A program made the position numbers and the translations under genes. This document shows, one piece after another, positions 56,467-58,566 of a stretch of DNA of 64,000 bases (position 1 is its first letter; each line of letters starts with the position of its first letter). The notes beneath the pieces were generated by a model, which was not told the DNA's origin, made no database searches, and worked only from the letters and a program-made list of their open reading frames with translations. The stretch lies in NCBI RefSeq assembly GCF_001676615.1, contig NZ_LYXZ01000035.1, positions 1 through 64,000 on the forward strand. The letters are read 5' to 3'. Source of the DNA: Labrys sp. WJW (lineage in GTDB: Bacteria > Pseudomonadota > Alphaproteobacteria > Rhizobiales > Labraceae).

Positions 56467-56745
56467 GTGCTCGATTATCGGGGGATTTGCCGGGCCGGTC
56501 CAATCAAGCTCGCGAATGGAAATCATCGCGTCGGTTGATGGTTGCAGGTGTCAGAAGCCTCAACCCGCCCGGGAGCATCAGGCCTCGAACGGAACTCCAT
56601 ACCGGCAATGGAGCCCGTGCCGCATGAATTCTTCGCGTCGGTCGATTGACAAAGAGCAGTAAGAATTTTTTACTTATATGAATATTTTTTTCTAATAGGT
56701 GAAGTGTCGAATAGGAGTTTCCGTTAACTGATAGGAGAAATGTGT

Positions 56746-58566
56746 ATGTCGAGGCGTGATACCTATCCAATCCGCATATTTCTGACTGTCGCGGCCCTTA
56801 CTTTCCTGTTTTCTTTGGCGCCACCAGCGAGAGCATTTGAAGACACCGATAAATACCGGCCGATCGACGAAACCGAGGTCGACAAGACGGTTACGCTGAC
56901 GGGGCGCGATCTCACCTACCAGCAGGTTGTCGAGATCGCCCGCAACGGCGCCAAGGTCGAGCTCAGCCCCGAAGCCCGCCAGCGTTCGGCCGATGCTTAT
57001 GGTCTTCTGCTGCAGGGCGCTGCCGAGAACGTCACCATCTATTGGTTCAATCGCGGCGCCGGCGATCAGCGCGAGACGGTGATCTTCTCGGGCGATCCCA
57101 CGACGCCGGAGAACACCAAGCTCCTGAAGGACCAGCAACTCGCGCGCTTCAAGGATGGTGTCAGGGATGGCTATGGGCCGGAGATCCGGGAGGAAGCGCT
57201 GGTGCGCGCCATCATGGCCATTCGCGCCAACACGATGTCCTACGAGGCTGCCAGTCCGCCCCTGACCCAGATCCTCGTCGACATGCTGAACAGGCGCATC
57301 ACGCCCGTCGTGCAGTCGCGCGGCACGCTCGGCGAGGGCGATCTGAACACCCTGGGCAATATCGGAGCTGCGATGGTCGGGGAGGGGGACGCCTATTACC
57401 GCGGTGTCCGGATGCCTGCCTCACAGGCTCTCGCCCAGGCCGGAATCAAGCCTCTCGAACCTTTTGCCGCGGACGAAGCGGCATTGATCAGCACCAATGC
57501 CTATGCGCAGGCACAGGCGGTTCTGCTGCTCGAGGACTCCCGCAGGCTGCTGGAATGGACCGATCTCGTCTATGCGATGGACCTGCTGGGCATGAATTCC
57601 AGCGTCACGCCGATTTCCGCGCCGGTCCAGTCGATGCGCCCCTATGGCTGGCTCACCTGGAACGCGGCCCGCATCATGGACATGATCAGGGGCAGCTATC
57701 TCTTCGATGAGGATGCCGCACGCATCATCCAGGATCCGGAGAGCATGCGGGCCTCGAGCCAGCGGCAGGGCTCAGCCTGGCAGGCCTGGGCGGACCTCAG
57801 GGATTCCGTCAGTCTTTCCATCAATTCATCGGATCACAATCCCGCCACCATACCGGGCCTCACTCCGGAAAGCTCTTGGGAACTGAGCACGCCGCAATTC
57901 ATGAAGTACTACGTCAAGGGCGGCAAGCTCAGCGGTGGCAAGTCGGGCTACATCTTCTCCAACGCGAACTGGGATCCCTATCCGCTCGCCAATCAGGTCG
58001 AGGCGTTCACCCTCGCCCTGACGAATATGGGAGTGGTGATCGCCCAGCGGATCGAACGGTTCAAGAACCCGTTCTTCACCGTGGTCAAGCCGGCCGATGT
58101 CCTCAGCGCCGAAATGCGGAAGAACGCACCGACATTCGGCGGCTACCTGCCGACCGACCTGTGGCAGGAACTGGCCGAGATGGGTACGCCCGTCGCGCCG
58201 GCCGGCCAGGCCATCGTCTCGACCGTCGAGGACCTCCAGGCGCAGACCAGGATCAAGACCGAACGCGCCCGCAAGGCCGTCGACCTCTCCTTCGAACTGC
58301 TCGCGCATGACCTGCTGACCGCAAGCTACTGGATGGAGATCCGCAAGATCCAGAACCCGTCCCGCAATTTCGGCAAGGCACCGTCCGCAGCCCTCGCGGC
58401 GTTGCGTCAGGTCGTGCCGTGGCAGCAGCCTGCGCAAGACCGCCCCAAACGGCCGATCGGCATGGTGGTCTACGATTTCCTGCAGGCCAATCCGGCATCG
58501 AAATTCTATGCTGGTGGGCCGAAGCCCCCGGAAGGCCGGCCAGTACCGAAGGCGGGGCTGCAATAG
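56746..58566 (+). CDS. Exported HAL/PAL-fold protein lacking the MIO tripeptide
   Basis: A 606-residue member of the aromatic/histidine ammonia-lyase superfamily. Recognisable are LTGRDLTYQQVVEIARNGA, the inner-loop Tyr99 in IYWFNRGAG, TPVVQSRGTLGEGDLNTLGN, MVGEGDAYYRGVRMPA, INSSDHNPAT and VEAFTLALTNMGVVIAQRI. In active lyases the segment G-A-S-G-D-L makes the MIO electrophile; here G196-E197-G198-D199-L200 has no Ala-Ser, so MIO cannot form. The protein also has a signal peptide (IRIFLTVAALTFLFSLAPPARA), unusual for a family that is cytosolic. ATG 56746 is preferred (GGAG eight bases upstream). Its role is unknown; it may be a structural or novel enzyme use of the fold. Confidence 0.82.
   Translation: MSRRDTYPIRIFLTVAALTFLFSLAPPARAFEDTDKYRPIDETEVDKTVTLTGRDLTYQQVVEIARNGAKVELSPEARQRSADAYGLLLQGAAENVTIYWFNRGAGDQRETVIFSGDPTTPENTKLLKDQQLARFKDGVRDGYGPEIREEALVRAIMAIRANTMSYEAASPPLTQILVDMLNRRITPVVQSRGTLGEGDLNTLGNIGAAMVGEGDAYYRGVRMPASQALAQAGIKPLEPFAADEAALISTNAYAQAQAVLLLEDSRRLLEWTDLVYAMDLLGMNSSVTPISAPVQSMRPYGWLTWNAARIMDMIRGSYLFDEDAARIIQDPESMRASSQRQGSAWQAWADLRDSVSLSINSSDHNPATIPGLTPESSWELSTPQFMKYYVKGGKLSGGKSGYIFSNANWDPYPLANQVEAFTLALTNMGVVIAQRIERFKNPFFTVVKPADVLSAEMRKNAPTFGGYLPTDLWQELAEMGTPVAPAGQAIVSTVEDLQAQTRIKTERARKAVDLSFELLAHDLLTASYWMEIRKIQNPSRNFGKAPSAALAALRQVVPWQQPAQDRPKRPIGMVVYDFLQANPASKFYAGGPKPPEGRPVPKAGLQ

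Follow-up and report, generated by a model that had tools for sequence, protein, structure and literature searches.

The stretch of Labrys sp. WJW DNA analysed here (64,000 nucleotides, hereafter the window) encodes, at positions 56746..58566 of the forward strand, a protein of 606 residues (plus stop codon) from a branch of MIO-free, ergothionase-related lyases that are exported and, in some lineages, associated with TonB receptors; relatives occur at 24 loci in the searched genome collection. The protein is likely to be a periplasmic, MIO-free 1,2-eliminase that frees trimethylamine from a histidine-type betaine, for which ergothioneine (or hercynine) would be the most likely candidate; the Labrys enzyme is probably a periplasmic ergothionase. 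We infer this reaction from the computed fold, the absence of MIO, the signal peptide, the kinship to ergothionase and the genomic links to trimethylamine use. A survey of the literature on MIO-less lyases returned only a mutant PAL, and no description of an exported branch of such enzymes was found in open-licence papers; the exported, TonB-linked subfamily, which is 25% identical to the characterised enzyme, looks undescribed.

All features of this gene described below lie on the forward strand. An alternative in-frame ATG at position 56740, two codons further upstream, would yield a protein of 608 residues. The aromatic amino acid lyase domain PF00221 (residues 56-554; 56911..58407) was the sole Pfam family in the protein (318.6 bits versus a cut-off of 27.3, E = 8e-95) and the match covered positions 1-465 of the 466-position profile, which bears out the full-length resemblance to HAL, PAL and TAL proposed in the preliminary description. 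The score was far below the cut-off for every one of the NCBIfam equivalogs HutH, TAM, PAL and PAM (e.g., 167 bits for HutH against a cut-off of 539). The landmarks of the fold named in that description were all located in the translation, namely, the inner-loop tyrosine (Tyr99, 57040..57042, within IYWFNRG), which occupies the position of HAL Tyr53 and is invariant in all groups, the SSDHNP block (residues 361-366) and VEAFTLAL. Also retained are Arg335 (57748..57750, within QDPESMR), which is invariant and corresponds to the carboxylate-binding Arg283 of HAL, and the near-invariant Glu495 (58228..58230, within TVED) at the position of HAL Glu414. Re-reading of codons 57331..57345 confirmed Gly196-Glu197-Gly198-Asp199-Leu200 in place of the Gly-Ala-Ser-Gly-Asp-Leu of MIO enzymes, a loop shorter by one residue, and inspection of the translation of 56746-58566 revealed no Ala-Ser-Gly nearby. 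Because Glu-Gly replaces the MIO-forming Ala-Ser-Gly, MIO cannot be formed in this protein.

The N-terminus, MSRRDTYPIRIFLTVAALTFLFSLAPPARA followed by FE, resembles by inspection a Sec signal peptide. From hydropathy, the cleavage-site pattern and conservation in the family, residues 1-30 (56746..56835) are assigned as a Sec-type signal peptide with likely cleavage after Ala30 (PPARA, then FE), in agreement with the earlier claim of export. Every full-length member of the family carries the hydrophobic N-terminal segment except that from Rhizobium ruizarguesonis, whereas none was apparent in the comparison sequences, namely, five with MIO and the GA-AD and GY groups. A lyase fold that lacks the MIO triad and is exported implies that the fold is used without MIO and beyond the cytoplasm, and this part of the original proposal stands; its extension to a new enzyme class does not, and a pure binding protein is unlikely, as discussed below. 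In R. ruizarguesonis, whose protein is the only close homologue to lack a signal peptide, the gene on pRlX3 (region L031:6857-10668) overlaps that of an acyl-CoA ligase and lies behind an operon for an ABC transporter, a layout that suggests a cytoplasmic version of the enzyme, with the acid product converted to a CoA ester.

The relatives are 93-95% identical to the window protein within Labrys, 78-83% in Mesorhizobium, Aestuariivirga and Inquilinus, and 50-64% in acetic acid bacteria and unclassified metagenome-assembled genomes (MAGs). Nearly all of them, across genera, keep Gly-Glu-(Gly/Ala)-Asp, with GEGD present in orthologues from Labrys, Mesorhizobium, Paracoccus and alphaproteobacterial MAGs, and the family divides into GEGD and GEAD lineages. 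The dN/dS values between the window gene and five orthologues were 0.09-0.17, which, together with the retention of the motif at 50-95% identity, rules out a sequencing error or a decaying gene. The chance that an ordinary MIO-dependent ammonia-lyase was misread owing to a sequence or alignment error is accordingly negligible, given that the motif is intact across genera and sequencing projects and that no Ala-Ser-Gly lies nearby; an alternative alignment restoring the triad was ruled out on the same grounds. Exported MIO-less lyases also occur as tandem pairs (L019:7887-11557, L020:310-4022, L025, L027 and G791:C211), with GEADG in one member of the pair in L019, L020, L025 and G791. A 42%-identical relative (L063, G864:C95) has lost most of the region around the GEGD loop together with some of the inner loop (VPWFNR-SDDTA) and may therefore be degenerate or frame-disturbed.

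Ergothionase (ergothioneine trimethylamine-lyase) splits trimethylamine off the antioxidant ergothioneine, yielding trimethylamine and thiourocanate, and four essential catalytic residues have reportedly been defined in the Treponema denticola enzyme. This enzyme (6s7j/6s7q) was the top PDB sequence match of the window protein (E = 2e-39), followed by histidine ammonia-lyase (E = 4e-23), and its R-S-S-I-G-E-G-D is aligned with R-G-T-L-G-E-G-D of the window protein. The AlphaFold model, built from a 22-sequence alignment (pLDDT 87, pTM 0.87), adopts the lyase fold, as predicted in the preliminary description; the best Foldseek match was again 6s7j (E = 2.3e-28), with three 6s7j chains ranking above tyrosine aminomutase and HAL, and the TMt values against 6s7j, 7tqr and 1b8f were 0.87-0.89. 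Similar to the window protein, T. denticola ergothionase combines the PF00221 fold and a Gly-Glu-Gly-Asp loop with the absence of MIO, an inner loop in which NRG replaces NTG, and the residues equivalent to Tyr99, Arg335, Glu495, Asn284 and Asp363. Glu197 is present in 22 of the 22 family members as well as in T. denticola ergothionase; Asn284 (57595..57597) is common to the ergothionase group and missing from the MIO enzymes compared; and Asp363 of SSDHNP (57832..57834) is Asp in 5 of 5 ergothionase-type sequences and Thr in 5 of 5 MIO enzymes. All three are among the 15 columns conserved in the window family and specifically shared with the ergothionase-type group, compared with 2 shared with MIO enzymes, 3 with GA-AD and 0 with GY; given that the groups were chosen by us and the aligned sequences are distant, this count is suggestive rather than a test. 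MIO-free catalysis on the lyase fold with the same loop is therefore already represented by ergothionase, the top match in both sequence and fold, so that a new enzyme class need not be invoked.

The kinship is distant. The window protein is only 25% identical to T. denticola ergothionase (sequence taken from a printed alignment with a short unread stretch), is ~110 residues longer, with a signal peptide, an inserted loop at ~370-400 and a C-terminal extension, and belongs to a family that is TonB-linked in several lineages. In the tree, the members of the window family grouped together with a support of 100 and a long branch leading to them, placed with support beside neither T. denticola ergothionase nor a set of plasmid-encoded proteins from Sinorhizobium, Burkholderia arboris, Polaromonas and Paracoccus saliphilus (L032-L035). 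The latter are likewise MIO-free and of the ergothionase type, with signal peptide-like N-termini and most of the signature residues, and are 30-33% identical to the window protein, from which they differ in having a GQAD, GEAD or GAAD loop; at 35-39% identity, they are closer to T. denticola ergothionase than the window protein is. The Sinorhizobium meliloti pSymA gene (L032:8929-10569), annotated as hutH, encodes GQAD in place of GASGD behind a signal peptide-like N-terminus and, on its sequence, probably does not specify a histidine ammonia-lyase. HutH of Pseudomonas putida (1b8f), TAL, PAL and the aminomutases share with the window protein the fold (Foldseek E ~1e-23) and the positions of Tyr53, Arg283 and Glu414; the window protein, in contrast, lacks Ala-Ser-Gly, and hence MIO, and is exported. 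One paper describes ergothionase as devoid of MIO and rare, with a BLAST search that used one Burkholderia sequence as the query (PMC13405746, citing Maurer et al. 2019 for the absence of MIO).

The most informative genomic context was found in two alphaproteobacterial MAGs (L019 and L020, probably one lineage), in which the lyase is 63% identical to the window protein. The genes are ordered as follows: AraC regulator, thiohydantoin desulfurase, thiourocanate hydratase, MFS transporter, TonB receptor, the lyase homologous to the window protein, another lyase whose loop is GEAD, ammonium transporter (as read from L020), GcvT-like gene, trimethylamine monooxygenase (Tmm), TMAO demethylase (Tdm) and a DmmA-family protein. 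The desulfurase (582 bits versus an NCBIfam cut-off of 440), the hydratase (979 versus 930), Tmm (833 versus 675) and Tdm (1204 versus 1100) all exceeded the respective cut-offs. Because ergothionase yields trimethylamine and thiourocanate, this is the gene set expected for ergothioneine catabolism, and either of the two lyases in the L019 operon is a candidate ergothionase. The link to thiourocanate use comes from this one related lineage: the dedicated hydratase and desulfurase were found only in L019/L020 and were not above cut-off in Labrys or Mesorhizobium. A TonB receptor-type gene lies immediately 5' of a lyase gene in L021, L022, L023 and L026 and three genes upstream in L025 (calls by Pfam for the L019, L021 and L022 members and by BLAST clustering for the rest), and in L021 (4803-7775) the receptor carries a fused C-terminal OmpA domain. 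The neighbours of the lyase in L021, L022 and L026 belong to the luciferase-like, PhyH, HalD and UbiD families; in Komagataeibacter europaeus (L026:10845-14401), a GAAD-type MIO-less lyase adjoins the UbiD decarboxylase gene, near the exported lyase. The conserved Mesorhizobium neighbourhoods are probably kept only by descent. The Labrys gene is isolated, flanked by a divergent EamA-type transporter gene and a convergent glutamate-cysteine ligase gene, with a ROK regulator also among the neighbours (all named by inspection), an arrangement conserved within Labrys only. No trimethylamine or urocanate gene adjoins it, and the Labrys neighbours were dropped as uninformative about function.

Across genomes, Tmm exceeded the cut-off in 15 of the 19 lyase-bearing genomes versus 21 of 385 genomes sampled from the class, although the genomes are not independent of one another. 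Within Labrys, Tmm was present in all 3 genomes with the lyase and in neither of the 2 without it; the window genome itself encodes Tmm on contig 99 and Tdm on contig 54 (1190 bits versus 1100). All full-size genomes of the Mesorhizobium family tested contain Tmm irrespective of the lyase, and since the lyase-free members have it too, this group lends the trimethylamine link no support and was discarded as evidence. Tmm was not above cut-off in 4 of the lyase genomes and in two more of the L021 type, the lineages with the lyase and without Tmm being L021, L024, L026 and L027. A homologue with 66% identity is encoded on pAMI4 of Paracoccus aminophilus, which grows on trimethylamine, with mutants showing that use goes through Tmm (PMC4543880).

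In HAL, MIO is required to make the amino group a leaving group. Trimethylamine differs from ammonia in leaving readily from the outset, so that no electrophilic cofactor would be needed: Arg335 would hold the substrate carboxylate, Tyr99 would serve as the acid/base catalyst at the beta carbon, and departure of the quaternary amine would need no assistance, with Tyr99, Arg335 and Glu495 together providing acid/base catalysis and carboxylate binding. Because ammonia is a poor leaving group without MIO, an assay of the window protein with ordinary amino acids, read out as ammonia or cinnamate, would probably be negative. The substrate could enter the periplasm through the TonB receptor where the receptor gene is directly upstream; the acid product might be taken up afterwards, for which one cluster offers an MFS gene, and trimethylamine would be oxidised by Tmm and Tdm. 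Given that dedicated thiourocanate genes did not exceed the cut-off in Labrys, the enzyme may act on hercynine there, or ergothioneine may be exploited only in part, as a nitrogen source; hercynine would yield urocanate, the substrate of the single urocanase. That urocanase gene (C79:53452-55047), the only one in the window genome, lies ~7 kb from a MIO-less GY paralogue within the region L081 (G000:C79:46000-65900), with a binding protein and a permease-like ORF in between, and on a different contig from the canonical HutH. The genome encodes five PF00221 proteins, only two of which have Ala-Ser-Gly; besides the window protein, those lacking it are L003 (G000:C79:62144-63514, GSVG-Y-LSHMAH) and L004 (G000:C78:188828-190192, GSIGA-ADLAPLAH). 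MIO-less members of PF00221 seem to be common and obtain their highest scores with models of ammonia-lyases.

Alternatively, the exported enzymes of Labrys and of most Mesorhizobium-type members could apply the same chemistry to another amino-acid betaine, such as hercynine or a plant betaine (e.g., hypaphorine or the betaines of phenylalanine and tyrosine). This is a possibility that we consider somewhat unlikely: the missing thiourocanate genes, the ordinary-type urocanase that would suit conversion of hercynine to urocanate, the acyl-CoA ligase and ABC transporter beside the R. ruizarguesonis homologue, and the split into GEGD and GEAD lineages would all fit, whereas the closest lineage with an informative context carries ergothioneine-specific genes, and the signature residues are common to the window family and ergothionase. 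That the leaving group is something other than trimethylamine (sulfite, an alcohol or another amine), with the trimethylamine genes coincidental, is improbable. The several lyase-carrying lineages without Tmm and the gene neighbours in L021, L022 and L026, which give no pointer to trimethylamine, are in line with such an eliminase; the location of Tmm and Tdm beside the lyase gene in L019, the pattern of presence and absence in Labrys, and the background frequency of Tmm in the class all speak against it.

It is very unlikely that lyase activity was lost altogether, leaving a non-catalytic periplasmic binding protein as the preliminary description had suggested. Export, the absence of MIO and the TonB partner in some lineages would be compatible with binding, but every group compared, with or without MIO, keeps Tyr99, Gln329, Arg335 and Glu495 with little or no variation, purifying selection is strong, and the neighbouring enzymes consume the expected products. 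An exported trimethylamine-lyase remains our preferred reading. More tentatively, alphaproteobacteria might possess TonB-fed, periplasmic, MIO-free betaine lyases of several specificities beyond ergothioneine, divided into GEGD and GEAD subgroups whose genes are often arranged in tandem, and trimethylamine would then be removed from betaines before they reach the cytoplasm.

The family offers a convenient set of enzymes for probing how the ammonia-lyase fold works without its cofactor. If its exported members are trimethylamine-lyases, genes that currently carry the annotation aromatic amino acid or histidine ammonia-lyase would require new names, an unrecognised source of trimethylamine would be added, and soil and plant-associated bacteria would cleave ergothioneine or related betaines in the periplasm.
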